Origin: Bolinopsis microptera | Taxonomy: Eukaryota; Ctenophora; Tentaculata; Lobata; Bolinopsidae | Assembly: GCF_026151205.1 (NCBI RefSeq) | Contig: NC_087074.1 | Location: forward strand, 5,268,001-5,332,000 | Direction of reading: 5' to 3' | DNA: 64,000 bases | Shown: piece after piece, positions 18,501 through 62,919 of the stretch | Layout of the letters: the number at the start of each line of letters is the position of its first letter | Position numbering within the stretch: the first letter of the stretch is position 1 | Notes under the pieces: model-generated | Told to the model about the DNA's origin: nothing | Databases searched by the model: none | Seen by the model: the letters and a program-made list of their open reading frames with translations, nothing else | Translations under genes and position numbers: made by a program

Positions 18501-21500
18501 GGACAGTGTTAGTGATAAGAGGAGGACAGTGTTAGTGATAAGAGGAGGACAGTGTTAGTGATAAGAGGAGGACAGTGTTAGTGATAAGAGGAGGACAGTG
18601 TTAGTGATAAGAGGAGGACAGTGTTAGTGATAAGAGGAGGACGGTGTTAGTGATAAGAGGAGAACATTGTTAGTGATAAGAGGAGGACAGTGTTAGTGAT
18701 AAGAGGAGGACAGTGTTAGTGATAAGAGGAGGACAGTGTTAGTGATAACAGGAGGATAGTGTTAGTGATAAGAGGAGGACAGTGTTAGTGATAAGAGGAG
18801 GACAGTGTTAGTGATAAGAGGAGGACAGTGTTAGTGATAAGAGGAGGACAGTGTTAGTGATAAGAGGAGGACAGTGTTAGTGATAAGAGGAGGACAGTGT
18901 TAGTGATAAGAGGAGGACAGTGTTAGAGATAAGAGGAGGACAGTGTTAGTGATAAGAGGGGGACAGTGTTAGTGATAAGAGGAGAACAGTATTAGTGATA
19001 AGAGGAGGACAGTGTTAGTGATAAGAGGAGGACAGTGTTAGTGATAAGAGGAGGACAGTGTTAGTGATAAGAGGAGGACAGTGTTAGTGATAAGAGGAGA
19101 ACAGTGTTAGTGATAAGAGGAGGACAGTGTTATTGATAAGAAGATGACAGTGTTAGTGATAAGAGGAGGACAGTGTTAGTGATAAGAGGAGGACAGTATT
19201 AGTGATAAGAGGAGGACAGTGTTATTGATAAGAAGATGACAGTGTTAGTGATAAGAGGAGGACAGTGTTAGTGATAAGAGGAGGACAGTGTTAGTGATAA
19301 GAGGAGGACAGTGTTAGTGATAAGAGGAGGACAGTGTTAGTGATAAGAGGAGGACAGTGTTAGTGATAAGAGGAGGACAGTGTTAGTGATTAGAGGAGGA
19401 CAGTGTTAGTGATAAGAGGAGGACAGTATTAGTGATAAGAGGAGGACAGTGTTAGTGATAAGAGGAGGACAGTGTTAGAGATAAGAGGAGGACAGTGTTA
19501 GTGATAAGAGGAGGACAGTGTTAGTGATAAGAGGAGGACAGTATTAGTGATAAGAGGAGGACAGTGTTATTGATAAGAAGATGACAGTGTTAGTGATAAG
19601 AGGAGGACAGTGTTAGTGATAAGAGGAAGACAGTGTTAGTGATAAGAGGAGAACAGTGTTATTGATAAGAAGATGACAGTGTTAGTGATAAGAGGAGGAC
19701 AGTGTTAGTGATAAGAGGAGAACAGTGTTATTGATAAGAAGATGACAGTGTTAGTGATAAGAGGAGGACAGTGTTAGTGATAAGAGGAGGACAGTGTTAG
19801 TGATAAGAGGGGGATAGTGTTAGTGATAAGAGGAGGACAGTGTTAGTGATAAGAGGAGGACAGTGTTAGTGATAAGAGGAGGACAGTGTTAGTGATAAGA
19901 GGAGGACAGTGTTAGTGATAAGAGGAGGACAGTGTTAGTGATAAGAGGAGGACAGTGTTAGTGATAAGAGGAGGACGGTGTTAGTGATAAGAGGAGGACA
20001 GTGTTAGTGATAAGAGGAGGACAGTGTTAGTGATAAGAGGAGAACAGTGTTAGTGATAAGAGGAGGACAGTGTTAGTGATAAGAGGAGAACAGTGTTAGT
20101 GATAAGAGGAGGACAGTGTTTGTGATAAGAGGAGGACAGTGTTAGTGATAAGAGGAGGACAGTGTTAGTGATAAGAGGAGGACAGTGTTAGTGATAAGAG
20201 GAGGACAGTGTTAGTGATAAGAGGAGGACAGTGTTAGTGATAAGAGGAGGACAGTGTTAGTGATAAGAGGAGGACAGTACTATAAAACATTCTGAAAAAC
20301 CTATAAAACCCCCAAAATACATACCTGTAAAACTTAGCCCTGACAGCTTCTAGCTGCTCAGCAGTAAAAGAAGAGTCCTGTCTTTTCAGCATCACCCCAT
20401 CAGTATCCACCTCACCTACAAGAGGTGACATTACTGACTGGTCTGTGGAGACGGGGGTGATGGTGTCTTCTGTGTCGAATTCGAATATCTTCTCATAAAC
20501 TCTGTCTTCTAACCCTTCTGAGCTTCCTTCTTCCCTGTAGAGAGATGGGTCAAGTTGTTAACTCTAGGTGTGACCTCACTATACACGATATCGTGTTATC
20601 TTGATTTCTTAACAACTTTAGTTCGTTCCATACTCTATTCTAACCCACCTGTCACTGGAGTCAGGGTGAGGAGCAGAGGGCCCACTATCCTGATCTGACT
20701 CAGGCAGGGGAGCAGAGGGTTTCACCACATAGACCCCGCCATTAGTCACCACCTCCTCCCCCACCTCACCATCTAATGTCTTTCTAGTGGGTTTAGGTGT
20801 TAGGTCGCACGTCGTTTGGAAACTGTCCTCTGAGACCTTGTCTGGGGGGATCCCCTTAACTCCGTCCACTTCTTCCATTATGTTGGTCAGTTCCAAGCTA
20901 GTCATAGAAATCCTGAAATTTTGGGACAATGTAATGTCTGAACTAAAAGGCTGTTTAAACAAAGTTAAAATCTGTGCCACCCCAGCCATAAATATTGCTC
21001 TTAAAACTGAATATCTCGCAATAAATCTCCTAAATTAACCAGCTAATCAGCTAATAACCTCTTAGTCTCATTAGCCTCCTCAGCGCCGTGGCCCTCGAGC
21101 CAGTTATACACACGTCTGTTGAGGGACATGTCGCGCCGCAGCAGAACACACAGCGCAGCGCGCAGTAACTTCAGGATATCACACCTGCTGAATTCTCGAG
21201 CTGGGGGAGGAGAGTTATTAATATAAAACCAGGTAACCAGGTAACCAGGTAACCAGGTAACCAGGTAACCAGGTTACCAGGTAACCATGTAACCAGGTAA
21301 TCAGGTAACTTCAGGATATCAGACCTGCTGAATTCTCGAGCTGGGGGAGGAGAGTTATTATTATAAAATACAATTACTAACTAACAAATAGTTAGTCAAT
21401 GCGTTCTCTGATTAACACGTAAAGAAGTTCGAATAGTAAGTTTAACAATAATAAGTTTTAAACTTATTGTAACAAATCTATTACATTTATTGAGTATTAT

Positions 21501-24471: not shown

Positions 24472-27400
24472 TAAATGAGAGAAAATAATGTTCTAAAAAT
24501 ATTTTCAGGACTACCTCGCAATGGCTTTCGGACATGCATGCTTAGTATTTCATGGCGTAAAGTTGAAGAATATAGCATTAAACTATATTCTTTAACTCTT
24601 TGATCGAATTTACTCGTACAATATTGCTCTCCCCGTTTTTCAGTTTTTCTTTTACTTTTCTCCATAGATTGGTCTCGTACAAATTTTTTCCCGTACAGTC
24701 AAAATTGCAAACAAAATTGCTATTTCCGTACAGTCTTCCTAGTTCGTGGTACGCCATTTTATCTTTCTGATTTCCGTGAGACTAATTTTTGCATTACCTT
24801 CCACCCTGTGGAATTTCTTCTCAATATTATTTAATCATAATTCTCATTTAAGGAGGGTGATAATGATCGAGCAGCTGATCGTTATTGAAATATTTGCAAA
24901 ACCAGATGTAGCTTATATTTAGTATAAATACTAAGGTATTACGAACCTGTAAATTACAAAGGTAAATTTACCTTCTTTAGATCTCTTTTACTAGTAATAG
25001 TAGTAGTACACTGTTATTACTTTACATATTTATATATATACATGTATATTCAATCTGACACAATATTACCAATACCACTTGACAGCTACAGGTACACGTC
25101 AATACATATTACGTTTTTTAAACCTTATTATGGATGGTGTCTTAATTGTATTTGTATCTTACTATATATATGGAGCGAGACGATTAAGGTTAAACGGATT
25201 CCTGCTAGACTTTTAATTCTCAATCAATTTTCATCCAAATTAAAGTCAGAATTCGGATATGCAAGCAGCAAGTTTATCATGGTTAATTTTACTTACTTAG
25301 ATCAGAATTCAGAATGGTTGAGCATAAAACCAGACCGATGATTTTTGGCCTTTTTGAAATCTATTTATTTATCATATATAGCAGACAGTATCCATAGACT
25401 ACACATTCGAAATGGGACATGCAGCGTGTGCCAGTAGTCAATATCAAACACTAATAAACCTGTCATATAATATTTCCGAGGAAGGTAACTTTCTACCAGT
25501 TCAGTTCAGAATTAAGTTCAAAATATCACTTCTGGTCTTCAAGCGTCTTAATAACACAGCCCCTCAGTACTTACAAGGCCAAGGACAATCTAAGAGAAGT
25601 ACGAAGACGAAGTTCTAGACTAGATGATGACTTTTATTTGTTGAAAGTTCCTCCTGCTCCTCATTTCAGACGAGCAGATGCTGCATTTATGTTTTGTGGA
25701 CAAAACATTTGGAATGAACTACCCTACTCAGTGAGATCATTATCATCGGTAGAATTTTAAAAATGTCCTAAGGACATTTTATTTCCACCTAGCTTTTGAT
25801 AATATTCCTAATATTTGTCCATAAATTCTGAACTAATAAAGAAGTGCATAATCTTGATATTTCGGAGAAACAGAGCCTAATAATAATCATGATTATGAGT
25901 GTAGCCGTTATCCCATGCTACACAATGATTGATCATCGGCTACTTTTCGAAATTGAAACATTTAGTTTTTAATTTATCTCATGCTGTTCTTCCTTTGCCT
26001 TTATAAAAGTCGTCTCAGGTACTCAGTTCTGTACGTGACATCGACTAACCTATACTACCCACTTTGCGGTACTAACTGTTTTTTCGGATAATAATTAAGA
26101 CACCCACCACCTTTTGCGGTACTAACTGTTGAGAAATCACGGTACTAACTGTGTCGTGGTATATAAAATAAGATACCCACCCAAAATTGCTGTAAACAGC
26201 TCATTAAACATGACTTTTTAGTTTTAAAAGGATCAGATATTGAATGTAAACAATAAAACAGTTGAGATATCTATGCTTAATTAAAAACAGATTGTACAAC
26301 GTACAATAATCTTCTGTCTACTCCCGTCTACTCTTTAGCTGTACGAACTTGTTAGTGCCATGTACTTACTGTTTTTCTGGGAAAAGAGCAGCAGACCTAC
26401 CACTTAGTACCAAAATACAAACTGTGTCTTGGAAGAAAATATGACCCCCGGCCCACCCCCCCCACGGCCCCACAGAGTGCTTGATTATTGATTTACGCCA
26501 TCAAGCTTTTCCATATCAATAATCATTAATCAAGTACGACGACTTCTATTCGTTCGTTTTCATCAGACAGTATGGACTATGGAGTGACCATGAAATTACA
26601 TTTCGTTTTGGAATTTTTAAACTACTTTTCTTTACGCTTCATAGTTCATACTACTGTGATCATAGTATGAGCCGAAAATCGAAATACTGTCTCTACCGTC
26701 TCTCTGTCGGGTCGCATAAACAATAAACATAGGGTTGCATAGAAATGTACACGATTTTCAAAACCAATATGGAATTAACTGAGCGGCGCTCGGCCTGTAT
26801 GTTGTCACCCCGCCTTATCTGAGACTACATGCTTATATAAACAGTAAAGAGAATTTAATAAAATATGCCATCACGAATTGAGAAATTTAGCGGCCATCCA
26901 CAGAAGAAAAGCGGCCGCAATTCTTCTACTTCTCTAATTATAAAGTAGTGACATAAAGTAAAACGTGCACTTTTTCGAACTTAAACGCACTAAAAAATTG
27001 GACGCACTTCACGCACTTTTTCCGACAAATTAACGCACAATTCTTGATTAGTTTATCAGCTTACCCTCTTCAGTGTAATGGAGAATGAAAATGTGTCAGG
27101 ATCCAAAGTTTTCAACAGGATAAAACTGGAGGAAGACAGTAAATCAGCAGAGCTGATAAAGATAGAGATCAAAACAGAAGAAGATGAACTTTCTATTTTA
27201 TTGGAGACTTTTGATTGTCCTACATTTGAGTTGCAGCTTCCTTCCATGGAATCGTTCATCAAGCAATTTAAACGTGATCACTGTACTTCAAATGTGAAAG
27301 AGATTCTAACCATTCCTGAGAGTGAGTCAGAGGCTTATTTTAATGTGGATACTGAATGTGGCAAATCATCTTCAAGAGAAGAAGTTGCTGATGAGTCATT

Positions 27401-30400
27401 GAAATACCCTCAATATTCGTATAATACAACACTTTGCTTAGTTCCTCATCAGCGGATTCACAACGATGAAAAACCATACAAGTGCTCTAAATGTTCGTAT
27501 AGAGGAAGGCGAAAATCGAACTTATATGCCCATTTCAGGATTCATTCTGGAGAAAGACCATACAAATGTTCTCAATGTCCATTCTCTACTGGCAAAAAAT
27601 CAAACTTAGTTTCCCATCGGCGAACTCATTCCGGAGAAAAACCGTACAAGTGCTCTGAATGTCCATACACCTCAGGACAAAATTATAGCCTAATTCTTCA
27701 TCAGCGGATTCATTCTGACGAAAAACCTTATAAATGCTCTCAATGTCCGTACAGAGCAAGACAAAAATCAAACTTAAACTCTCATCAGCAAACTCATACT
27801 GATGAAAAACCGTACAAATGTTCAAAATGTTCGTACAGTGCAAAGAGAAAATCTTCCATAATTTACTATCAGCGGACTCATTCTCAAGCGGACTCATTCT
27901 AAAGTTCTTAAATTATAACGAGCCAAAAATTGCACTTAATTTACCACAATATTCAAAAAGAGATGGGTCTGGTTGAAGTAGCAACAGAAGGCTCATGTTG
28001 GAGAACATTTACTCATGCAATTACCATCAAAGAATTTATAAATGAGGGACCACATGCAAAACTGGTATATCTGTTTTTGATAGTTTTGAGATAAATGCAT
28101 TTTTGCTGATTTAAAGATTCTATATCATGTGTAAAAAACACTTCTAAAAAATGGTATATCTGTCTATATACCATTTTTAAAACTAGAATTGTACCAAAAC
28201 TGGTATATCTCACGATATACCATTTTTTCTATACTATAAACAATAAAATAATTTAACTGAGAATGGTATATCTGAAGATATACCATTTGGGCTGGCTAAA
28301 GTCTATAAAATGTGTATAGATATACCGGTTTTATTGAAGATAAGTTTCTTGAAGGTGGTCTATCTGCAGATATACCATTTTGTTTTCATGATTGTTAAGA
28401 GCTAAAATGGTATATTGTAACATATACCAGTTTTGGAAAAATTAAATTTCACTTTTTTTCAAAAATTTCTTCAAAATTGTTCAAAAAAAAATTCCAAAGA
28501 TGCACCTTTTCACCCTGAAGACTATGAGCTACCTGCGCAAAATTGGTATATGTTCAGATATACCAGTTTTGCATGTGGTCCCTCAAATAGATTCTGACTC
28601 TGTTATCGTGGAAAAAGCTGTGAACAGGTGTGCGCTAATCGATCACTTGCCTTAGAAAGCGCATGTGGGTAATTATTGATGTTAGCATTTTGTGGTCATG
28701 TGACTGTAGTTTATAGTATCTTACATGTGTATGGTTTTTAATCATTAGATTATATATTATAATAACGATAATATAATTGTCATTGAATGCTCTTCATCAA
28801 TAGGTGTCGTTGTCTGTTTGACTTAGGTAAAAACCTATGTATATGCTTCAAAAACATTTTATTAGCTACAGTAATGAGTAATGTCTTGCGTATCATTTTC
28901 TCAATGTATCCTCGATCTTAGCAACAACTCAATACAATGCTATCTTGTCGTGCAGAATCATAATTTTTCACCAGTATTTTGTAACTTACTTATTCAGTCT
29001 TATAACTATCTTAGTTATAAATAATCTCATAGTTAAACTTTCAGGACCAGGTCTACAATGAATGAAGAATGTGTATATGAGCCGGTGGCAGTTATTAAAG
29101 ACGAAATAAAGCAGGAAGAAAACGTCATATCATCAGAATTCATAAAAATAGAAGTCAAAACAGAAGAAGATGGACTCCTTGTTACATCGGACAGTTTTGA
29201 TATTCCTACATATTATGAGCTGAACTTTCCTTCCGAGAAATCGTTCATCGAGCAATTTCAACATGATCAATCTACTTCAACTGTACAGGAAATTCTTCCT
29301 TCTTCACAAATTCAAAACATCCCTGATTCGGAACCCTATAAAAATGTGGAAAGTGAATGCGAGGAATCCTCAAGAAGAGAAGTCACCGGTGAGCTTCCGA
29401 AATATCCTGAGTGTCCTTTTGGTCAAGAAAACAACAATTCACCGGTTCCAGGATCAAACATTCTGTACGATCAACCTTACAGTTCCACTGTAAAACTGTA
29501 CAAATGCTGCTTTTGTTCCTTCAGTACAGGCCAAAAATCCCAATTAGATCCCCATCAGTGGACACATCTGGGAGCGAAACGCCCGGATTTAAAGACTGTT
29601 CATCCCATAAGAAAAAGTTACCAATGCTCTCAATGTACTTACAGTGCGCCCCGAAAATCACAGTTAACTTCCCATCAGTGGACTCATATTGATGAAAAAC
29701 CGCACAAATGCAATCGATGTTATTACAGCACGAGTCAAAAATCGCAGTTAACTTCCCATCGGTTGGCTCATGTTGATGAAAAACCGTACAAATGCTCTGA
29801 ATGTTCTTACAGTGCTCGCCGAAAATCACAGTTAATTTCCCATCAGTGGAATCATACTGATGAAAGACCTTTCAAATGCCCTGAATGTTCTTACAGTACA
29901 AGCACAAAAAAACGTTTAACCACCCATCAGTGGACTCATTCTGACGAAAAACCATACAAATGTTCCGAATGTTTTTACAGTGCAAGCCAAAAATCTAGCT
30001 TAGTCGCCCATAAGTTGTCTCATTCCAGCAACAAAAACCCGTACAAATGCTCTGAGTGTTCTTTCTCTTCGTGCCGAAAATCAACCTTAGTTCGTCATCA
30101 GCAGATTCATTCCGACAAAAACGACAAATATTGTGAACTTTCTTACGATGCAAGCCAAAGATAACTCTTAATTTTCCATCATTAGACTCATTCCGGTTAA
30201 AAATCATTCAAGTGTTCAAAATTTTCATCCAGTAAAAAACAGAGATAATTTTTATTCAAGCAGCAAGAGAAGGCTAGTGTCGGTGAACACCAGACACCTT
30301 GATGATATGGAGACCATTAAAACATTCAACTGGTTCTTCATTTGGCGATTCCCGCTGTGTTTGACACTCAAACTGTGATGAACAAAATTTTTTTTCTGCT

Positions 30401-36743: not shown

Positions 36744-36912
36744 TTAGAAAATAAGGCCCCTAATTAGGAAAATAAGGCCCCTAATTAGGAGCTGAAAATA
36801 AGACCCCTAATTAGGAGCTAAAATAAGGCCCCTAATTAGGAAAATAAGGCCCCTAATTAGGGGCTAAAAATAAGGCACCTAATTAGGAGCTGAAAATAAG
36901 GCCCCTAATTAT
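36744..36912. repeat. Minisatellite (AAATAAGGCCCCTAATTAGG)n abutting RNF170
   Basis: About eight tandem units of 20-28 bp with optional AGCTGAA spacers. The last unit overlaps the RNF170 stop codon (TAA of TAATTAGGGGCC on the minus strand). Confidence 0.85.
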
Positions 36913-37651
36913 TCATGCCGCCAGCGTTCAATAGCGGCTGCAAATTCCTATAGGCCACGTACGTTCTGTAAGTATTTGTAACATAAAGTGCGATGATTAC
37001 AATGACAATGATGTCATCAATGACTCCCGCCACACCAAACACTGACTCTGGCAACAGGTCCAGTGGCGCTATAACATAGATAAGAGCTAACGCAAAGTAA
37101 GCGTAAATACGGAATCTCATCAAGAAATCTAACCCACTGTCTGACCACATTCTGCGAATAAGCGTGGGGATATCGTAGATATAGTCCATCCAGGGGCGCG
37201 GCGCGCCACTGAACCTCCTGTTGTAGGACCCTATCTTGTCAAGTAGCTGGGGTCTCTCCTGGTTAACGGTGGTTAACTCCGTCTCGTTAAAGTGAAGGAA
37301 GATGAGAGTTATAGTCTGTCTGCACATGGGACAAGGCATGGGACTCAGCAGCCACTCGCTGTGGTCCCAACAAGCCAACATACACGCCCCGCAGAACACG
37401 TGGCCACAGTTAGTTTGCACGGGGTAGGAGGTGGTGTCCAGGCAGATGGGGCAGGAGTCGGAGTGGGGGCCTTCTGTGGGGTGGAGTTGGGGGTGCTGGG
37501 TGGTGGAGGGGTCACCATGGTGATCTACTTTGGAGGAGGTGATGTAGTAGACTATGGTTAGGGTGAAGAGGATTAGGGCTGTCACCATGGTGACGAATAC
37601 CACCTCGTCACCCACCCCCTCCACATAGGTAGCTTGGTCTGTGGTATCCAT
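36905..37651 (-). CDS. RNF170: RNF170-like RING-type E3 ubiquitin ligase, 248 aa
   Basis: RNF170 is an endoplasmic-reticulum membrane E3 ligase known for ubiquitinating activated IP3 receptors (family knowledge). One N-terminal transmembrane helix lies at about residues 17-37. A C3HC4 RING follows at about 67-113 (CPICLD, NCGHVFCGAC, CPMCRQT), then a conserved stretch RRFSGAPRPWMDYIYDIPTL, and finally a DUF1232 region with two hydrophobic helices at about 180-235 (IYVIAPLDLLPE). Length is close to the usual ~250-260 residues, so the single exon is complete. ATG at 37,651; the stop lies inside a minisatellite. Same strand as the next two genes. Confidence 0.93.
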   Translation of the reverse strand: MDTTDQATYVEGVGDEVVFVTMVTALILFTLTIVYYITSSKVDHHGDPSTTQHPQLHPTEGPHSDSCPICLDTTSYPVQTNCGHVFCGACMLACWDHSEWLLSPMPCPMCRQTITLIFLHFNETELTTVNQERPQLLDKIGSYNRRFSGAPRPWMDYIYDIPTLIRRMWSDSGLDFLMRFRIYAYFALALIYVIAPLDLLPESVFGVAGVIDDIIVIVIIALYVTNTYRTYVAYRNLQPLLNAGGMNN

Positions 37652-40609: not shown

Positions 40610-42124
40610 TTAAAAATAGAGCACATAGACAGGTTTAAATAAAGTATTGTCCCACATAATGATCTGTTCACAGTAGCCCTGCTTATCTGGTTTAACTCTG
40701 CTGTACTGGTTGGGAAGTAGAATGAGTTTGAATATCAGCATACACTGCCGATTATACTTGAGACTGAATTCAGGGTACTCACTGAAGTAACATCCGTCGC
40801 CATGGGCACGTCCGTGTACTGCTGCGCGCTGCCAATCCAGATTAACCTGCACGATGCTCTGCACGTTTTGGGGTGATGTGGCGTGGTATGCGTAGATTTC
40901 CTTGCCGCCACTACTTGCCATCTTGTGTTTCTGAGCTTCGTACTTTTTCCATATCCCGTGAGAAACTACAATTTCCAAATGTGAGATCTTTTTTTTATGA
41001 CATTTATTATACTTGAGAGTCTGTCTTTTAAGACAGTCTCCATTGTACAAACTAGTCGCCTTCATAACCACGTCACTCCACGGATCTGAAGCGTTTCTGA
41101 AGTCGAATGTTTTGACATCTATCTGCCAAACACCGTCGTTCAGCTGAGCCAGTACGTCAGGGACATCAGAGTAAGGGTTAGACTTACGCACAGCAGCTAT
41201 CTTAGTTGCCTTCAAGGTAACCACGTATTTCAGCATTATCTGGTTCTTGTAGGATACAACAAAAGGTATCGGCTCTTCAGCTATGTCCACTTTGTCACTG
41301 ATGTCAATGTTTTGTCCTAGAAGAGCATCGCAGACAACAAATGTGAGGTTCCCCTCTGCTTCTGTTTTAGCGTGTTTGTAAAGCGAGAACAGCCTTTCTT
41401 CAATATTCTCCTTGAGGATCTTGTAGATCTTCTCCTCGTTTAGTAAATGGAAAGGGATCAAGTGAAAGGACTTGTAGAGTTCCACAGTCTTGGATGTGAC
41501 GGTTAGGTTCGCTGCTTTCTCGTAAAAGTGAACTCTGTTTGCAGGGCATTGAACCTTGTACATCTCAGTGATCTCTACTGTTGAATTTGAAAACAAATTA
41601 AAGAATATCTTGGCTTTGTCAGTCAGCCTGTCATATTCGGGATCACTCTGGTCTAAAGGTGTCAAGTTGAATAAAACTGATGTTTCTTTTGATTCCTTCC
41701 GAGCCTTAGCTAACTTCTCGTAGGCAACATTCCTGGCAGTCAATACAGCCTCAGGTAACCTCTCTTCTTCTATAATTGCCTCATCAGCAGCCACGGAAGT
41801 TTCACCATCACCATCAAGGAAGGACTGGTTGTTATGATCATCCGTATCATCTTGGAACGCATCCTCCACACCCTGCGATGTACTGGGATCTTGAGAATTC
41901 AAGAGATAATTTAAACTACCATCCTTCGACTGTATGGTCTGGTCAAACATTCCCGCGGTAGAGAGCAATAACATAGGCGGGACATTATGAGGAATGTCCG
42001 GAATGTTGGGGGAGGGAGTTATGTCAGACACCAGAGAAGAGCTTGCAGAGTTCAGTATAGGGAGGTAGTGAGAGGTAGTGCTGTCCGGTTCTGCTACTTT
42101 AGAACCACCAGAATCGCCTGATAC
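40610..42124 (-). CDS. PARP-type ADP-ribosyltransferase exon (last exon)
   Basis: 504 codons open from acceptor CATCGCAG to the stop. The last ~95 residues look like a PARP catalytic core: YAYHATSPQNVQSIVQVNLD (the H-x-T equivalent), then HGRAHGDGCYFSEYPEFSL (the G-x-G-x-Y-F-S equivalent). The final strand is CEQIIMWDNTLFKPVYVLYF, where Glu may be the third residue of the H-Y-E triad. The preceding ~300 residues, including a KVDIAEEPIPF..NQIMLKYVVTL stretch, are unassigned. Poly- versus mono-ADP-ribosylation cannot be told. The C-terminus ends at the canonical P-x-Y-x-x-x-F strand, so the domain looks complete. Confidence 0.8.
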   Translation of the reverse strand, partial: VSGDSGGSKVAEPDSTTSHYLPILNSASSSLVSDITPSPNIPDIPHNVPPMLLLSTAGMFDQTIQSKDGSLNYLLNSQDPSTSQGVEDAFQDDTDDHNNQSFLDGDGETSVAADEAIIEEERLPEAVLTARNVAYEKLAKARKESKETSVLFNLTPLDQSDPEYDRLTDKAKIFFNLFSNSTVEITEMYKVQCPANRVHFYEKAANLTVTSKTVELYKSFHLIPFHLLNEEKIYKILKENIEERLFSLYKHAKTEAEGNLTFVVCDALLGQNIDISDKVDIAEEPIPFVVSYKNQIMLKYVVTLKATKIAAVRKSNPYSDVPDVLAQLNDGVWQIDVKTFDFRNASDPWSDVVMKATSLYNGDCLKRQTLKYNKCHKKKISHLEIVVSHGIWKKYEAQKHKMASSGGKEIYAYHATSPQNVQSIVQVNLDWQRAAVHGRAHGDGCYFSEYPEFSLKYNRQCMLIFKLILLPNQYSRVKPDKQGYCEQIIMWDNTLFKPVYVLYF

Positions 42125-53654: not shown

Positions 53655-53728
53655 TCATCAAGTAGATGGTAAGTTGTGAAGGCCAGCCATCAAGTGACCC
53701 CCAGCCACTGACAGCACGTCACAAGGGT

Positions 53729-54310
53729 CACGTGACAGATCACATGTCATGTAACCACGTGACAAGCTCGTTAATTAAATGTCAAGGTCACGTGACAAGA
53801 TAATTGACCAATGAGGAGCCAGAACGTCATGACGAATCAATCAATAATCCCGACTAAAGGATCTAAAGTCTGATTAAACGGTTGCCAAGCAGGTTCCTGT
53901 TACTTGATCACTGGTCACGTGTTTAGCCTAAGCATCATGTGACATGAATGTTATTTGAACCTCGAGATCACGTGACAGGAGTCACTTGATTACCCGTCAG
54001 AACGTCATGATGAATAAATTAATAATCCCGACTAAAGGATCTAAAGTCTGATTAAACGGTGTGTCAAACAGTTCTGTCACTTGATTACCCGCCATGTGTT
54101 TAACTTTAGCATCATGTGACACCGTCACGTGTTTAACTTTAGCATCATGTGACATGAATGTTATTTGAACCTCGAGGTCACGTGACAGGAGTCGCTTGAT
54201 TATCCGTCAGAACGTCATGATGAATAAATCAATAATTCTGTCTAAAGGATCTAAAGTCTGATTAAACGGTTGCCAAGCAGGCTCCTGTCACTTGATTACC
54301 GGTCAAATGA
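53729..54310. repeat. CACGTG-rich direct repeats, outer left arm
   Basis: At least seven CACGTG cores (mostly GTCACGTGA) within 500 bp, plus three copies of a block starting CAGAACGTCATGA and ending GTCTGATTAAACGG (at 53,820, 53,998 and 54,208). Mirrored in the right arm (about 60,707-61,288). Confidence 0.85.
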
Positions 54311-54510
54311 TTCTTAACGAATTACCCCGGTCCAGTCACCACTCCAAATAAGCAGAGAGTGTCATAACGAAATGTGGTGTAGGGTTACCATCACTCCCCC
54401 CCCCCCCCACTCCTCCTGGGAATTGTAAGTCTTATCATCAATTTTCTGACATTTAAGCAATAGCTACAGCTATCTGAACCACATTTTCACCCTTTAAGAT
54501 ATAACAACTG

Positions 54511-54600
54511 TTAGGTAGCCTAGTGGTTAGAGCAACCGCCTTCTGCACAAAAGGTTCAGGGCGAATCGAATCCCATTGTCACCCTGCAGTCTAGGGAGTA
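54511..54600 (+). repeat. tRNA-derived SINE head (left arm)
   Basis: TAGCCTAGTGGTTAGAGC resembles a tRNA A box, and GAATCGAATCCC a B box, at suitable spacing. The intervening sequence does not fold as a normal anticodon arm, so a SINE or pseudo-tRNA is likelier than a functional tRNA. Mirrored at 60,417-60,506 (minus). Confidence 0.55.
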
Positions 54601-54820
54601 GCAAAGGCTCCATACCATTGACTATTATTAACTACTAAATTTGCGTGTTATAAATTTGGTGAATTTCAAGAGACGAATAAAACTACCGTTTAATTGATAA
54701 TTTTTTTTGTTATCACCATAATCATAAATTGAAATCATCAAGAGTAAGATTGGGTACATAAATCAATCTATAACAGTTGTATGTTAATGGGGTTCTAGTA
54801 CTGGTAGTTAGTTCCACCAA

Positions 54821-55510
54821 CTATTTATTCAGATAAAGTTTGAGAATCTTATCGACAATATTTGTGTTTTCGTTCATTAGTTTGTTTACATCAGATAGAC
54901 TTGTAGTGGTGATAACTGCATCCAATAGAGATCGTTCTTCCAAACTTAAAATATCTGTTAGGTCTTTTCCGCTGTCAATGAAACGCTGCTTCAAGACAAC
55001 AAACAATTCGGTTTTCATCATGTATGAGAATAAAATGTCAAAACATTTATCTTGCTCTTTACACAATTTACTTTGTAACAGGACGTCTAGAGATTTAAGT
55101 AAACTCGATATCTTTTTACTGTTTGGTTGTTTGATTGGTACTCCTTTCCGCTTGCCTACGTGTTGCCAGTCAGTATCAGATTCTAATTCTTTAGCACTAT
55201 ATTCTTTGTTAGACTCATCATCGCTACTTGTTACACCACTAAATTCATCATCACCACTACCTGGTACATCAGAGTTAGAACCACCTTGCTGAGATTCTTC
55301 AGATACTATTGTATCAGCATCTGAATATACAGAATCCGGACCCTCCATTTTGACATCAGTCGCATCTGAGTTAGCTTTTGACAGTGGCTGCAGAATTGCA
55401 GAACTTTCATCTGACTCTCGGTTCTCCCGATGATACCTACTAATGTGTGAGGACAGACTATATTTATTGGCAAAAGACTTGTCACAGAATGAGCAGGTTA
55501 CAGAATTCAT
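54821..55510 (-). CDS. Foldback-encoded C2H2 zinc-finger protein, 229 aa, left copy
   Basis: ATG at 55,510, stop at 54,821. One N-terminal C2H2 finger (CSFCDKSFANKYSLSSHISR then YH, residues ~5-26). A long acidic Ser/Asp/Glu-rich middle follows (~40-125), then a basic patch KRKGVPIKQPNSKK. The Leu-rich, probably helical C-terminus (~135-229) includes FDILFSYMMKTELF and SLEERSLLDAVITT. No recognised enzymatic domain. Intact, identical to the right-arm copy and transcribed outward from the loop. Possibly a DNA-binding factor of the element or a captured host gene. Confidence 0.75.
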   Translation of the reverse strand: MNSVTCSFCDKSFANKYSLSSHISRYHRENRESDESSAILQPLSKANSDATDVKMEGPDSVYSDADTIVSEESQQGGSNSDVPGSGDDEFSGVTSSDDESNKEYSAKELESDTDWQHVGKRKGVPIKQPNSKKISSLLKSLDVLLQSKLCKEQDKCFDILFSYMMKTELFVVLKQRFIDSGKDLTDILSLEERSLLDAVITTTSLSDVNKLMNENTNIVDKILKLYLNK

Positions 55511-55555
55511 AACTGCAGTACAAACGTTTTATAATGCTATGCAACAACCATTATA

Positions 55556-55870
55556 TAGCAATAATCGCATAAAATCGCAAATAATCGCAAAATAATCGCA
55601 TATAATCGCATATAATAGCATATAATAGCATATAATAGCATATATATATAATAGCATAAAATTGCAAATAATCGCATATAATTGAAAAATAATTGCATAA
55701 AATAGCATATAATAGCATATAATAGCATATAATCGCATATAATAGCATATAATAGCATATAATCACATTTAATCACATATATAATCACGTATATTATCTC
55801 TTAAAATCACATTTTATTATTTATACTCGCAAATAATTGCATATAATTGCAAATAATCGCATATAGTAGC
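55556..55870. repeat. 10-bp minisatellite (AGCATATAAT)n, left arm block 1
   Basis: Irregular tandem GCATATAAT units with AGC/CGC alternation, directly upstream of the zinc-finger ATG. Mirrored at about 59,147-59,461. Long Tyr/Ile-rich open frames across it are artefacts of the repeat. Confidence 0.85.
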
Positions 55871-56226
55871 AGGGTGAATATGATCCAACTTATGCATTCA
55901 ACCTATTAAAGATCTTTTCAAAGATTTATTTTCATGCTGATTGCCAAGCATCATCCTGGAGATGGAACTGTAACTCTTGAGTCTACCAAAGACTGCACCC
56001 AACATGTAGGAATACTTCCTAGTGGGGACATTAAAGGACCACACCAGACAGGACAAGGAGATCATGGTAAATTCTACGTCAACTAGTCAGACGGAGATCA
56101 TCTTCGAGATCTATCACTTTCTGGATTATCATTCATAACCAGTAGTCAGCACACCATTAATTTTTGCTTTCAAATGATAACTGCTAATACTCTTGTCGAT
56201 TTTATTGCACAGAAACCAGCATTTGA

Positions 56227-56304
56227 CCGGGACCGGGACCGGGATAGCTCAAAATTGCCAATCCCGGTACCGGGATACCCGGTACCGGGAATCCCGGTCG
56301 ATTA
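56227..56304. repeat. Nested CCCGGTACCGGG palindromes
   Basis: (CCGGGA)n followed by three overlapping palindromic ATCCCGGTACCGGGAT-type units; mirrored at 58,713-58,790. Confidence 0.8.
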
Positions 56305-56429
56305 CTGGTGCATGCAACTGACCAGGTTTAGGTATCAGGTGATTTTTCCTGCAATTTGGTAGTTGTGAAACATCACCTTGGATTTCTGTTGTCACAAAAC
56401 GTACCTTTTTAGATCTTTTCTCAAAGCAT

Positions 56430-56590
56430 ATAATAGCATGTAATCGCATATAATCGCATATAATCGCATATAATCGCATATAATAGCATATAATAGGATA
56501 TAATAGCATATAATAGCATATAATAGCATATAATAGCATATAATCGCATATAATCGCATGCAATAGCATTCAATCACATATATAATCCAT
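56430..56590. repeat. 10-bp minisatellite (AGCATATAAT)n, left arm block 2
   Basis: Same unit as block 1. Mirrored at about 58,427-58,587. Followed by four GACAATTGAC-like units (56,600-56,665). Confidence 0.85.
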
Positions 56591-56802
56591 TGGGTGGGCG
56601 ACAGTTGACCCCCCCGACAATTAACCCCCGACAATTGACATCTCGACAATTGACCAGCTGACAATATAATTTAATACAGCATCACTTCATACCATACTCC
56701 TCACGGTGCTCTTGATCTAGGAAGAATGCACCTTTGTTGTGGTGTGCCACACTCCACATGAATAGATTCCCGGAAAATTCAGATGCTCTCCCCATAGCTA
56801 GT

Positions 56803-56885
56803 GGCACAGACGGGAATCGAACCCGGGACCCTGTGAATGCGAGGCATTTCACAAGCAGGCAGACTAACGTCTAACGAACTGTGCC
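56803..56885 (-). repeat. tRNA-like / SINE head (left arm copy)
   Basis: Mirror of the right-arm copy at 58,132-58,214: closing stem GGCACAG/CTGTGCC and a perfect B box GGTTCGATTCC. Confidence 0.55.
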
Positions 56886-57169
56886 ACATAGCCATTTATA
56901 ACTATAATGTATTATTTTAAACTGACAAGCTTGTAAATGAAATGTCAAGGTTACGTGACAAGTTAATTGACCAATAAGAAGCAAGTACGTCATAATAGCA
57001 TCCGTCACGTGATATTCGTAACGATCTTGTTAAACATGTTTCACTTTTGTTGTGATGTGCCACACTCCACATGGACAAATGTCACGATACTCTTGATCTA
57101 GGAAGGAGGTACTTTTGTTGTGATGTGCCACACTCCACATGAACAAATCCGCTAAATACTGAATAAATG

Positions 57170-57412
57170 CCGAATACTGAATGAATATTGAATGAATACT
57201 GAATGAATACTGAATAAATACTGAATGAATATTGAATAAATACTGAATGAACACTGAATGGATACTGAATGAATACTGAATGAATACTGAATGAATACTG
57301 AATGAATACTGAATGAACTCTGGATGAACACTGAATGAATACTGAATGAATACTGAATGAATACTGAATGAATACTGAATGAATACTGAATGAATACTGA
57401 ATGAATACTGAA
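57170..57412. repeat. 11-bp minisatellite (TACTGAATGAA)n in the foldback loop
   Basis: About 22 copies. Because 11 is not a multiple of 3, all three minus frames read the same 11-residue cycle (FIQYSFSIHSV), giving long open frames that are unlikely to be genes. Confidence 0.9.
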
Positions 57413-57800
57413 AATAATCGCAAATAATAGCATATAATATCATATAATAGCATATAATAGCATATAATAGCATATAATAGCATATAATCGCATATAATAG
57501 CATATAATTGCATATAATTGCACATAATAGCATATAATAATAACATATAATCGCATTCGGTAGACTCAAGAATTACAGTTCAATCGCCAGCATATAATCG
57601 CATATAATAGCATATAATATCATATAATCGCATATAATAGCATTATATAATATCATATAATCGCATATGATAGCTTATAATAGCATATAATAGCATATAT
57701 AATCGCATTCGGTAGACTCAAGAGTTATAGTTCCATCTCCAACATATATTAATATAATCGCATATAATAGCATATAATATCTTATAATCGCATTTAAATG
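57412..57800. repeat. 10-bp minisatellite (AGCATATAAT)n in the loop
   Basis: Two or three blocks separated by copies of a TCGCATTCGGTAGACTCAAG segment that also occurs in the arms. Confidence 0.85.
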
Positions 57801-57864
57801 AATCGAATACCAATGGTTGTTACGTTTAAATAGATAAAATTAAATGTTTTAAAAGAGCGATCCA

Positions 57865-57956
57865 TCTGGAGAAGTAGGCTAGGCGGGATTTGAACCCGCA
57901 TTGTCCTGCATAGGAAAGTTGCCGTTAACTCACTAACCTGAGGCTCCAGATGGACC
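57865..57956 (-). repeat. tRNA-like element in the loop
   Basis: On the minus strand, GCGGGTTCAAATCCCGC forms a perfect 5-bp T-arm with a consensus B box, preceded by an A-box-like CTCAGGTTAGTGAGTTAACG. The acceptor stem does not pair well. CCATCTGGAG and CTCCAGATGG flank it as inverted repeats. Likely tRNA-derived SINE or pseudo-tRNA. Confidence 0.5.
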
Positions 57957-58131
57957 GCTGTTAAAATGAAAATATGAACATGTTAAACAAGATCGTTACG
58001 AATATCACGTGACGGATGCTATTATGACGTACCTGCTTCTTATTGGTCAATTAACTTGTCACGTAACCTTGACATTTCATTTACAAGCTTGTCAGTTTAA
58101 AATAATACATTATAGTTATAAATGGCTATGT

Positions 58132-58214
58132 GGCACAGTTCGTTAGACGTTAGTCTGCCTGCTTGTGAAATGCCTCGCATTCACAGGGTCCCGGGTTCGA
58201 TTCCCGTCTGTGCC
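58132..58214 (+). repeat. tRNA-like / SINE head (right arm copy)
   Basis: GGCACAG...CTGTGCC closing stem, T-arm-like CGGG-TTCGATT-CCCG, and hairpins AGAC/GTCT and GTGAA/TTCAC. At 83 nt with a non-standard anticodon arm, it is read as a SINE head, not a working tRNA. The SINE body continues to about 58,320. Confidence 0.55.
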
Positions 58215-59506
58215 ACTAGCTATGGGGAGAGCATCTGAATTTTCCGGGAATCTATTCATGTGGAGTGTGGCACACCACAACAAAGGTGCATTCTTCCTAG
58301 ATCAAGAGCACCGTGAGGAGTATGGTATGAAGTGATGCTGTATTAAATTATATTGTCAGCTGGTCAATTGTCGAGATGTCAATTGTCGGGGGTTAATTGT
58401 CGGGGGGGTCAACTGTCGCCCACCCAATGGATTATATATGTGATTGAATGCTATTGCATGCGATTATATGCGATTATATGCTATTATATGCTATTATATG
58501 CTATTATATGCTATTATATCCTATTATATGCTATTATATGCGATTATATGCGATTATATGCGATTATATGCGATTACATGCTATTATATGCTTTGAGAAA
58601 AGATCTAAAAAGGTACGTTTTGTGACAACAGAAATCCAAGGTGATGTTTCACAACTACCAAATTGCAGGAAAAATCACCTGATACCTAAACCTGGTCAGT
58701 TGCATGCACCAGTAATCGACCGGGATTCCCGGTACCGGGTATCCCGGTACCGGGATTGGCAATTTTGAGCTATCCCGGTCCCGGTCCCGGTCAAATGCTG
58801 GTTTCTGTGCAATAAAATCGACAAGAGTATTAGCAGTTATCATTTGAAAGCAAAAATTAATGGTGTGCTGACTACTGGTTATGAATGATAATCCAGAAAG
58901 TGATAGATCTCGAAGATGATCTCCGTCTGACTAGTTGACGTAGAATTTACCATGATCTCCTTGTCCTGTCTGGTGTGGTCCTTTAATGTCCCCACTAGGA
59001 AGTATTCCTACATGTTGGGTGCAGTCTTTGGTAGACTCAAGAGTTACAGTTCCATCTCCAGGATGATGCTTGGCAATCAGCATGAAAATAAATCTTTGAA
59101 AAGATCTTTAATAGGTTGAATGCATAAGTTGGATCATATTCACCCTGCTACTATATGCGATTATTTGCAATTATATGCAATTATTTGCGAGTATAAATAA
59201 TAAAATGTGATTTTAAGAGATAATATACGTGATTATATATGTGATTAAATGTGATTATATGCTATTATATGCTATTATATGCGATTATATGCTATTATAT
59301 GCTATTATATGCTATTTTATGCAATTATTTTTCAATTATATGCGATTATTTGCAATTTTATGCTATTATATATATATGCTATTATATGCTATTATATGCT
59401 ATTATATGCGATTATATGCGATTATTTTGCGATTATTTGCGATTTTATGCGATTATTGCTATATAATGGTTGTTGCATAGCATTATAAAACGTTTGTACT
59501 GCAGTT

Positions 59507-60196
59507 ATGAATTCTGTAACCTGCTCATTCTGTGACAAGTCTTTTGCCAATAAATATAGTCTGTCCTCACACATTAGTAGGTATCATCGGGAGAACCGAG
59601 AGTCAGATGAAAGTTCTGCAATTCTGCAGCCACTGTCAAAAGCTAACTCAGATGCGACTGATGTCAAAATGGAGGGTCCGGATTCTGTATATTCAGATGC
59701 TGATACAATAGTATCTGAAGAATCTCAGCAAGGTGGTTCTAACTCTGATGTACCAGGTAGTGGTGATGATGAATTTAGTGGTGTAACAAGTAGCGATGAT
59801 GAGTCTAACAAAGAATATAGTGCTAAAGAATTAGAATCTGATACTGACTGGCAACACGTAGGCAAGCGGAAAGGAGTACCAATCAAACAACCAAACAGTA
59901 AAAAGATATCGAGTTTACTTAAATCTCTAGACGTCCTGTTACAAAGTAAATTGTGTAAAGAGCAAGATAAATGTTTTGACATTTTATTCTCATACATGAT
60001 GAAAACCGAATTGTTTGTTGTCTTGAAGCAGCGTTTCATTGACAGCGGAAAAGACCTAACAGATATTTTAAGTTTGGAAGAACGATCTCTATTGGATGCA
60101 GTTATCACCACTACAAGTCTATCTGATGTAAACAAACTAATGAACGAAAACACAAATATTGTCGATAAGATTCTCAAACTTTATCTGAATAAATAG
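59507..60196 (+). CDS. Foldback-encoded C2H2 zinc-finger protein, 229 aa, right copy
   Basis: Exact mirror of the left-arm ORF, translating to the same 229 residues. ATG at 59,507 follows AT-rich 10-bp repeats that could act as core promoter. Two identical divergent copies in one element mean either recent arm formation or continuing gene conversion. Confidence 0.75.
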   Translation: MNSVTCSFCDKSFANKYSLSSHISRYHRENRESDESSAILQPLSKANSDATDVKMEGPDSVYSDADTIVSEESQQGGSNSDVPGSGDDEFSGVTSSDDESNKEYSAKELESDTDWQHVGKRKGVPIKQPNSKKISSLLKSLDVLLQSKLCKEQDKCFDILFSYMMKTELFVVLKQRFIDSGKDLTDILSLEERSLLDAVITTTSLSDVNKLMNENTNIVDKILKLYLNK

Positions 60197-61363
60197 TTGG
60201 TGGAACTAACTACCAGTACTAGAACCCCATTAACATACAACTGTTATAGATTGATTTATGTACCCAATCTTACTCTTGATGATTTCAATTTATGATTATG
60301 GTGATAACAAAAAAAATTATCAATTAAACGGTAGTTTTATTCGTCTCTTGAAATTCACCAAATTTATAACACGCAAATTTAGTAGTTAATAATAGTCAAT
60401 GGTATGGAGCCTTTGCTACTCCCTAGACTGCAGGGTGACAATGGGATTCGATTCGCCCTGAACCTTTTGTGCAGAAGGCGGTTGCTCTAACCACTAGGCT
60501 ACCTAACAGTTGTTATATCTTAAAGGGTGAAAATGTGGTTCAGATAGCTGTAGCTATTGCTTAAATGTCAGAAAATTGATGATAAGACTTACAATTCCCA
60601 GGAGGAGTGGGGGGGGGGGGGGAGTGATGGTAACCCTACACCACATTTCGTTATGACACTCTCTGCTTATTTGGAGTGGTGACTGGACCGGGGTAATTCG
60701 TTAAGAATCATTTGACCGGTAATCAAGTGACAGGAGCCTGCTTGGCAACCGTTTAATCAGACTTTAGATCCTTTAGACAGAATTATTGATTTATTCATCA
60801 TGACGTTCTGACGGATAATCAAGCGACTCCTGTCACGTGACCTCGAGGTTCAAATAACATTCATGTCACATGATGCTAAAGTTAAACACGTGACGGTGTC
60901 ACATGATGCTAAAGTTAAACACATGGCGGGTAATCAAGTGACAGAACTGTTTGACACACCGTTTAATCAGACTTTAGATCCTTTAGTCGGGATTATTAAT
61001 TTATTCATCATGACGTTCTGACGGGTAATCAAGTGACTCCTGTCACGTGATCTCGAGGTTCAAATAACATTCATGTCACATGATGCTTAGGCTAAACACG
61101 TGACCAGTGATCAAGTAACAGGAACCTGCTTGGCAACCGTTTAATCAGACTTTAGATCCTTTAGTCGGGATTATTGATTGATTCGTCATGACGTTCTGGC
61201 TCCTCATTGGTCAATTATCTTGTCACGTGACCTTGACATTTAATTAACGAGCTTGTCACGTGGTTACATGACATGTGATCTGTCACGTGACCCTTGTGAC
61301 GTGCTGTCAGTGGCTGGGGGTCACTTGATGGCTGGCCTTCACAACTTACCATCTACTTCATCA

Positions 61364-62472: not shown

Positions 62473-62919
62473 CTACTGCTTTAGAATTAATTCGAAGCCT
62501 GACCACTTTTGTGAAAAAAAATGTGATTTCTGATACGGTTTTTCGCCTGTATGAGTCATTTGATGGTTAACTAAGTTTGATTTTCGGCTTGAACTGTAGG
62601 AATATTCAGAGCATTTATACGGTTTTTCACCGGTATGAGTCCACTGATGTTGAACCAGGTCTGATTTTCGGCTTGCACTGTAAAAACATTCAGAGCATTT
62701 ATACGGTTTTTCGCCAGTATGGGTCCGCTGATGGCATACCAGGCTTGATTTTCGGCTTGTACTGTAGGAACATTCAGAGCATTTATACAGTTTTTCCCCG
62801 GTATGGGTCCGCTGATGGCATACCAGGTCTGATTTTCGGCTTGCACTGTAGGAACATTCAAAGCATTTGTACGGTTTTTCACTGGTATGTACCCATGGAA
62901 CTAATGCTAATTCTGATTT
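62473..62919 (-). pseudogene. Truncated C2H2 zinc-finger array
   Basis: Open without an ATG. Reads a broken finger (KSELALVPWVHT), then four fingers: [80 protein letters not shown]. It then loses the pattern and stops at 62,473. The last finger has its second zinc Cys replaced by Tyr. Same finger/linker style as the two genes nested in DOP1, so a family relative. It may instead be the last exon of a gene with upstream exons. Confidence 0.6.

Follow-up and report, generated by a model that had tools for sequence, protein, structure and literature searches.

Polinton/Maverick transposons and the snap-back genomes of adeno-associated virus are the described systems that come closest to the element analyzed here. 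Intact vertebrate Mavericks carry terminal repeats of 46-1447 bp and end in (AG)3 or (AGT)2 (sections of PMC8097293). Snap-back genomes have one genome end doubled into inverted, self-complementary arms (parts of PMC8235507), and they appear to be the closest described analogue of the layout that we observed at positions 53661-61357 of the window, the 64,000-nucleotide stretch of Bolinopsis microptera DNA under study (C3:5268001-5332000; the genome searched comprises 264.65 Mb in 232 contigs). This ~7.7-kb foldback element, delimited by BLAST and pairwise alignment, shares with Polintons its 6-bp duplications and terminal repeats homologous to those of a gene-bearing element of the same genome, and its ends are close to the AGT type. 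Unlike Polintons, it has no recognized polymerase, integrase, ATPase, or capsid gene, is nearly all repeat, and carries a zinc-finger gene in both arms, which, at 3.4 kb, also differ in length from the vertebrate repeats. Snap-back genomes, for their part, are subgenomic particles of a hairpin-primed parvovirus, whereas the layout seen here characterizes transposons that are inherited as a family and connected to protein-primed elements. A literature search produced no description of this palindromic layout and no Polinton example of it. We consider it likely that the element derives from the Polinton/Maverick lineage, is non-autonomous, and owes its palindromic form to copy-back and a hairpin. 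Its features are as follows (window positions).

53655-53660, no strand: target-site duplication TCATCA, left; single copy at 6/6 aligned empty sites
53661-57040, plus strand: left arm of the palindrome (BLAST, pairwise alignment)
53661-54209, plus strand: outer left arm, homologous to the terminal repeat of the 18.4-kb Polinton C1:8045654-8064101
54821-55510, minus strand: 229-amino acid (aa) zinc-finger gene of the left arm, reading outward
55555-55871, no strand: tandem array of ~10-bp units (ATAATAGCAT-like), left arm
56425-56569, and 57414-57699 in the spacer: further repeats of ~10-bp units; more occur, mirrored, in the right arm
57041-57976, no strand: single-copy spacer of 936 bp, the loop of the palindrome, largely homologous in other copies
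57851-57854, minus strand: UUUU after the RNA stem (one C between), a candidate RNA polymerase III terminator
57856-57959, minus strand: tRNA-like RNA of 104 nt on a 16-bp stem; cloverleaf core at 57875-57939, Rfam tRNA 37.2 bits
57977-61357, minus strand: right arm, inverted copy with 2 mismatches and 1 indel (BLAST, pairwise alignment)
59507-60196, plus strand: 229-aa zinc-finger gene of the right arm, reading outward, identical to the left
60809-61357, minus strand: outer right arm, mirror homology to the terminal repeat of the same 18.4-kb Polinton
61358-61363, no strand: target-site duplication TCATCA, right; single copy at 6/6 aligned empty sites

The two arms, ~3.38 kb each, differ by two substitutions and a one-base indel in a C-run at arm position 735. 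An inverted repeat of 3.4 kb at 99.9% identity is not a product of chance. An earlier note, made from the letters of this DNA, had described a foldback at 53655..61363 with ~3.37-kb arms that are colinear apart from one base of the C-run, a TCATCA direct repeat outside it, and AG...CT ends. Alignment confirms each of these points, adding the two mismatches and the fuller termini AGTAGA...TCTACT; the note's start and end include the duplication. The same note had found no Polinton/Maverick genes in the element, and scans of open reading frames (ORFs) and Pfam agree: no polymerase, RVE integrase, packaging ATPase, or capsid gene was recognized among its ORFs (of at least 150 aa for polymerase). 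DNA polymerase matches are present elsewhere in the genome, outside this element.

Empty sites, which the earlier note had proposed as a check, were sought with a query made of 200 bp of each flank joined by one TCATCA. The joined flanks match across the junction at all 40 scored places (of 235 first-look candidates), with 90-94% identity. Six of those places were aligned, and all six run uninterrupted through the site, with one TCATCA and no insert. The window element is therefore a genuine insertion, TCATCA is a true target-site duplication, and the element sits within a copy of a host repeat.

The element belongs to a multicopy family. Its first 646 bp have at least 44 matches in the genome (the best 40 of 51 candidates were scored), and we examined 16 two-ended foldbacks, the window copy included. 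Perfect 6-bp duplications flank 15 of them, and in the remaining copy, L011, the duplication agrees at five of six bases. Fifteen start with AGTAGA, one base away from (AGT)2, and the exact form AGTAGT is found in L015 as well as in three other palindromic families. Arm length is 2.6-3.4 kb in most copies, whereas the arms of L013, L014, and L022 are broken or shorter. The arms are common to the foldback copies and the spacer to most of them (with losses in L011 and a few others), which suggests that this family's palindrome probably arose in a single event before spreading. Searching the genome with the zinc-finger protein gave 127 matches, of which 95 were grouped, leaving out 32 weak or fragmentary rows. 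These resolve into 57 loci: 38 opposite-strand pairs (32 divergent and 6 convergent) and 19 single genes, with no same-strand pair. Pairs were defined by orientation and a distance below 12 kb, and palindromy at the sequence level was checked for the retrieved loci. The window family accounts for 19 divergent pairs and three singles, loci being assigned to it when identity reached 82% for at least one of their members; a convergent pair on C11 represents another family and was excluded. The element is one of these 19 paired copies, and the foldbacks examined include the further copies with AG...CT ends and 6-bp duplications that the earlier note had suggested looking for.

The link to Polintons comes from an 18.4-kb element at C1:8045654-8064101, which has a 537-bp terminal repeat, 99.8% identical between its own ends, and a perfect 6-bp duplication, ATGGGT. 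Pfam matches within it comprise an rve integrase core (E 3.5e-5), an AAA_14 ATPase (E 0.0012), and two DNA_pol_B_2 pieces (E 2.7e-4 and 3.9e-4), all below the Pfam cut-offs; a TDTDS motif is present, and, in the pieces read, both the integrase and the polymerase frame are split. It also encodes a 431-aa capsid-like protein, modeled with a predicted local distance difference test (pLDDT) score of 87. The model has 107 matches in BFVD at E <=0.001; the top match is an uncharacterized bracovirus protein, and many others are major capsid proteins of virophages, nucleocytoplasmic large DNA viruses, and mavirus, together with LO7 of adomaviruses. A relative of the capsid-like protein at 75% is named Mnemiopsis leidyi. 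Copies of the integrase tail (99%) and the capsid protein (100%) lie at C7:16164930 and C7:16167818, respectively, and among further integrase loci in the genome 19 have open frames of 313-407 aa with no stop in the match. The window arm is homologous to the 18.4-kb element over arm positions 1-549 (98% over 49-549), and arm stretches 546-645 and 3263-3333 match the same repeat. Against the 537-bp repeat, the window arm is 96% identical over 533 columns, and the other foldbacks are 89-96% identical, mostly over the first 451 bases. The earlier note had proposed a non-autonomous, Polinton-like element mobilized by an integrase elsewhere. This gains support from the copies, the empty sites, and an element with the same terminal repeat that carries integrase, ATPase, polymerase, and capsid-like genes; the ends and duplications suggest possible mobilization in trans by a Polinton integrase.

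We propose the following mechanism. A Polinton integrase would recognize the AGTAGA ends and join a linear copy to its target, and the Polinton protein-primed DNA polymerase would replicate the element. The palindrome may have arisen when a displaced strand from a Polinton end, consisting of the terminal repeat and an outward zinc-finger gene, folded back and was then copied; the product would hold one end twice, in inverted orientation around a loop, as in snap-back defective genomes. In later rounds of replication the displaced strand could form a hairpin whose stem is 3.4 kb and whose loop is 0.94 kb long. Within that stem, repair or copying would hold the two arms to one sequence while letting the boundary between arm and loop shift. 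Under this proposal, two components specific to the element would be retained: the zinc-finger protein and the tRNA-shaped RNA that the loop carries.

Comparison of arms within and between copies bears on the hairpin step. Over the first 2.3 kb of the arms, within-copy divergence is 0-0.49% in 14 of 16 copies, the median between-copy divergence is 3.4% (all 16 copies included), and the nearest relative of an arm is its own partner for 28 of 32 arms. Thus, the arms of each copy are homogenized, because they match each other better than they match other copies. Consistent with this, among the 14 copies used for counting private changes (L013 and L022 were left out), 104 private substitutions are shared by the two arms of a copy and 28 are confined to a single arm. 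For the window copy these figures are 16 and 0, and a private 23-bp deletion is likewise present in both arms. Changes confined to one arm outnumber shared ones in L024 (11 and 4) and L018 (6 and 1), as expected if homogenization ends at insertion. The boundary between arm and spacer is variable between copies, since segment 3150-3370 is found in both arms of 4/16 copies, in one arm of 11/16, and in neither arm of 1/16.

The principal alternative is that the palindrome was made once, by chromosomal rearrangement, and that its arms have been kept identical by gene conversion after insertion, with no hairpin replication. Long inverted chromosomal repeats can undergo gene conversion, and the shared arms and mostly shared spacer mean that a single formation event suffices for the window family. 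This account sits poorly with L024 and L018, where homogenization looks as if it stops after insertion, with the occurrence of palindromes in four families with Polinton-type ends, and with the equal homogenization of the terminal repeat in the non-palindromic 18.4-kb element. We regard it as a serious but somewhat unlikely explanation.

The other palindromic families bear on both the proposed copy-back origin and a second alternative. Three were verified, each with AGTAGT ends and perfect 6-bp duplications. The first, C9:662254-674315 (L033, L029, and L034), is ~12 kb long, with arms of ~5.9 kb, a 303-bp spacer, and the duplication GACGTC; its ends form three more pairs, on C7, C9, and C13, making four in total. 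Each arm carries an outward 1261-aa open frame with a DNA_pol_B_2 match (42 and 41 bits) and the motifs KLANNSIYG and SDTDS. This polymerase-like frame in both arms speaks for a reading in which the palindromes, including the polymerase-bearing one, replicate autonomously as virus-like replicons that pass through hairpin intermediates and do not depend on Polintons. We find that improbable: the central 10 kb of this element showed no ORF of integrase size, DNA_pol_B_2 was missing at E 0.1 when the portion of the frame that falls within L029 was scanned with Pfam (the matches were Endonuclease_7 and a weak one), and the window family lacks a polymerase. The second family, C3:10809991-10819071, has the duplication CATACC, a zinc-finger gene reading inward, two further central ORFs, and ends that form four more pairs in the genome. 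A 258-aa ORF at its center (L031:3959-4735) has CxxC pairs and by eye resembles ORFs of the 18.4-kb Polinton; it may also resemble single-strand binding proteins. The third, C21:62595-68713, has the duplication AATTTG, and its first 3.0 kb are 99.6% identical to the other end.

The copy-back origin requires both arms to derive from one end of a parent genome. The arms are inverted copies, but no parent with the inner arm was found; five compact 8-9-kb elements with inverted ends have a distant relative of the zinc-finger gene at one end (C9:2276551-2285161, C3:8636913-8645649, C3:11680502-11688675, C1:15212632-15222047, and C7:1344454-1353446). These elements are known from gene matches and termini, and part of C9:2276551-2285161 (L032) was read. 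Two of the five, C9:2276551-2285161 and C3:11680502-11688675, have a polymerase match, in 1253-aa frames adjoined by the zinc-finger relative. The inverted repeat reaches the gene end of the query in four of the five and is 162 bp long in C9:2276551-2285161. Separately, C9:8583800-8593700 (L037) shows an intermediate layout, with an integrase and, by eye, an ATPase in a single-copy core and a capsid-like gene within inverted arms of at least 3032 bp that are 100% identical.

Foldback, Galileo, and Mutator-like elements make duplications of 7-9 bp, and membership of the window element in this group was rejected given its 6-bp duplications and the lack of any transposase match in its ORFs scanned against Pfam. 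The idea of a foldback element from a cut-and-paste superfamily (Drosophila FB, Galileo, or Mutator-like) unrelated to Polintons draws on the long, internally repetitive inverted arms, which resemble those of Galileo and FB (parts of PMC3573991 and PMC4168063). It is nevertheless very improbable in view of the 6-bp duplications, the AGT ends, the terminal homology to a Polinton, and the distant gene relatives in polymerase-bearing elements; the foldback group differs in its relatives as well as in duplication length, Galileo being classed with P elements (PMC3573991, in part). That the palindrome is an assembly or sequencing artefact of foldback reads, which have been described for long-read data (PMC12870357), is scarcely credible, because 15 of the 16 foldbacks have perfect 6-bp duplications in different flanks, and empty sites, 19 paired copies, and copy-specific changes mirrored in the arms tell against it as well.

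The earlier note had read the gene in both arms as a 229-aa C2H2 protein transcribed outward, which is correct as to size, position, and direction. The C2H2 assignment is more qualified. The single Pfam match, at residues 5-27, scores 23 bits against a curated cut-off of 25.2 and so falls below it when taken alone; at the same residues a 23-sequence profile finds PDB zinc fingers (best E 7e-5), and the predicted structure also shows a finger, at about residues 1-28. In that model (overall mean pLDDT 62.8) the finger is followed by an acidic, disordered linker (residues 30-119 and 122-129) and a helical domain (131-227). A search of 5.8 billion proteins returned 10 relatives, and a further search 23. 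The 690-bp ORF is open in 29 of the 32 arms of the 16 copies, and the ratio of nonsynonymous to synonymous substitution rates (dN/dS) between subfamilies is 0.36-0.43, or 0.29-0.36 for the C-terminal part. The note had also offered the protein as cofactor or cargo; set beside the distant relatives in compact Polinton-type elements, these results make the gene look like more than passive cargo. The protein is perhaps a DNA-end-binding or regulatory factor.

The tRNA-shaped RNA in the loop had gone unmentioned in the note. It folds with -51.3 kcal/mol (z -6.3), contains a stretch that we take to be B-box-like, GGTTCAAATCC, and is found in 15 of the 16 foldback copies (it is absent from L011), with a 65-nt core that is identical except in L012 and L013. 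ARAGORN called no tRNA for it. The loop RNA looks like an RNA polymerase III transcript. A genome search returned 19 places at 98-100%, corresponding to the window family, and relatives beyond it: eight complete and one partial at ~80%, and four more whose 80% matches extend over 81-88 bases. These counts leave out a match of 39 bases and two incomplete copies that lie inside a foldback. When the tables were compared by hand, ten of the 13 relatives had a Polinton integrase, capsid, or zinc-finger match no more than 20 kb away; for seven of them a capsid match is that close, some of these being fragments. Stretches from three relatives were folded: L046 gives the same fold (z -3.5), L045, whose stretch is too short on one side, gives z -0.4, and L053 is truncated. 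We aligned eight sequences, six of them distinct, from 4 of the 15 foldback copies and 4 of the 9 relatives, essentially two lineages. The outer ten stem pairs, where relatives have an internal loop, were excluded from the covariation count. In this alignment 161 of 162 cells pair, two-sided changes occur in 8 cells (shuffled mean 3.0), and none of 500 shuffles reaches the observed covariation score. Weighing the other way, three pairs have two-sided changes (mean 1.8; reached by 97/500 shuffles), and there are 11 further pair types (mean 12.5; reached by 485/500). Covariation is thus supportive, not strong. Adenovirus virus-associated (VA) RNA offers a parallel, being short and structured, encoded by a DNA virus, and equipped with RNA polymerase III signals; the loop RNA differs in being a tRNA-like cloverleaf on a long stem, and the likeness is one of description.

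Several results weigh against the Polinton-derived, hairpin-replicating origin that we favor. Homology to the 18.4-kb element is limited to ~0.55 kb and two short repeat-like stretches, and a full-length Polinton with the inner arm or the 229-aa gene was not found in the genome. At E 1, neither the 18.4-kb Polinton nor any other palindromic family examined contains the tRNA-like RNA. Private gap runs number 13 in both arms and 12 in one, and therefore homogenization is not visible in indel numbers. Two of the 16 copies are exceptions to arm identity, L013 and L022, the latter with ~1.7 kb extra in its right arm. Arm identity could also be explained by chromosomal gene conversion, and the element is known here from genomic sequence alone. 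Among window-family copies the dN/dS of the zinc-finger gene is 0.78; recent constraint on it is therefore weak. In L013 (C4:2663709-2671246) the arms are 10.7% apart and nearest to different copies, which suggests recombination between elements.

A broader interpretation, which we put forward tentatively as a possibility, is that such elements are heritable hairpin satellites of animal virus-like transposons. Polinton ends would repeatedly have been copied back into giant palindromes, with hairpin replication homogenizing the arms, and this family would have kept a zinc-finger gene and an RNA polymerase III loop RNA that also belongs to other Polintons and might work in the manner of a VA RNA, as a packaging or priming signal, or as a decoy. 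If so, the arms record strand copying, and, with several palindromic forms available in a single genome, protein-primed replication with hairpin intermediates becomes testable from sequence and extrachromosomal DNA; the tRNA-shaped RNA, which these palindromes carry and which also occurs close to other Polinton genes, would be a structured non-coding RNA of the Polinton lineage.

Other features of the window lie outside the element. Just to its right, at 62533-62889, is an 84-bp tandem array that by eye encodes C2H2 fingers on the minus strand, and two C2H2 multi-finger ORFs (Pfam) are found at 27078-27902 and 29058-30164. An ORF at 36905-37651 has RING and DUF1232 matches, and one at 40610-42031 has a PARP catalytic domain match. 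Positions 7925-20278 are occupied by a 12.3-kb satellite of ~538 copies of a 23-bp unit, with a strong G-over-C strand asymmetry.

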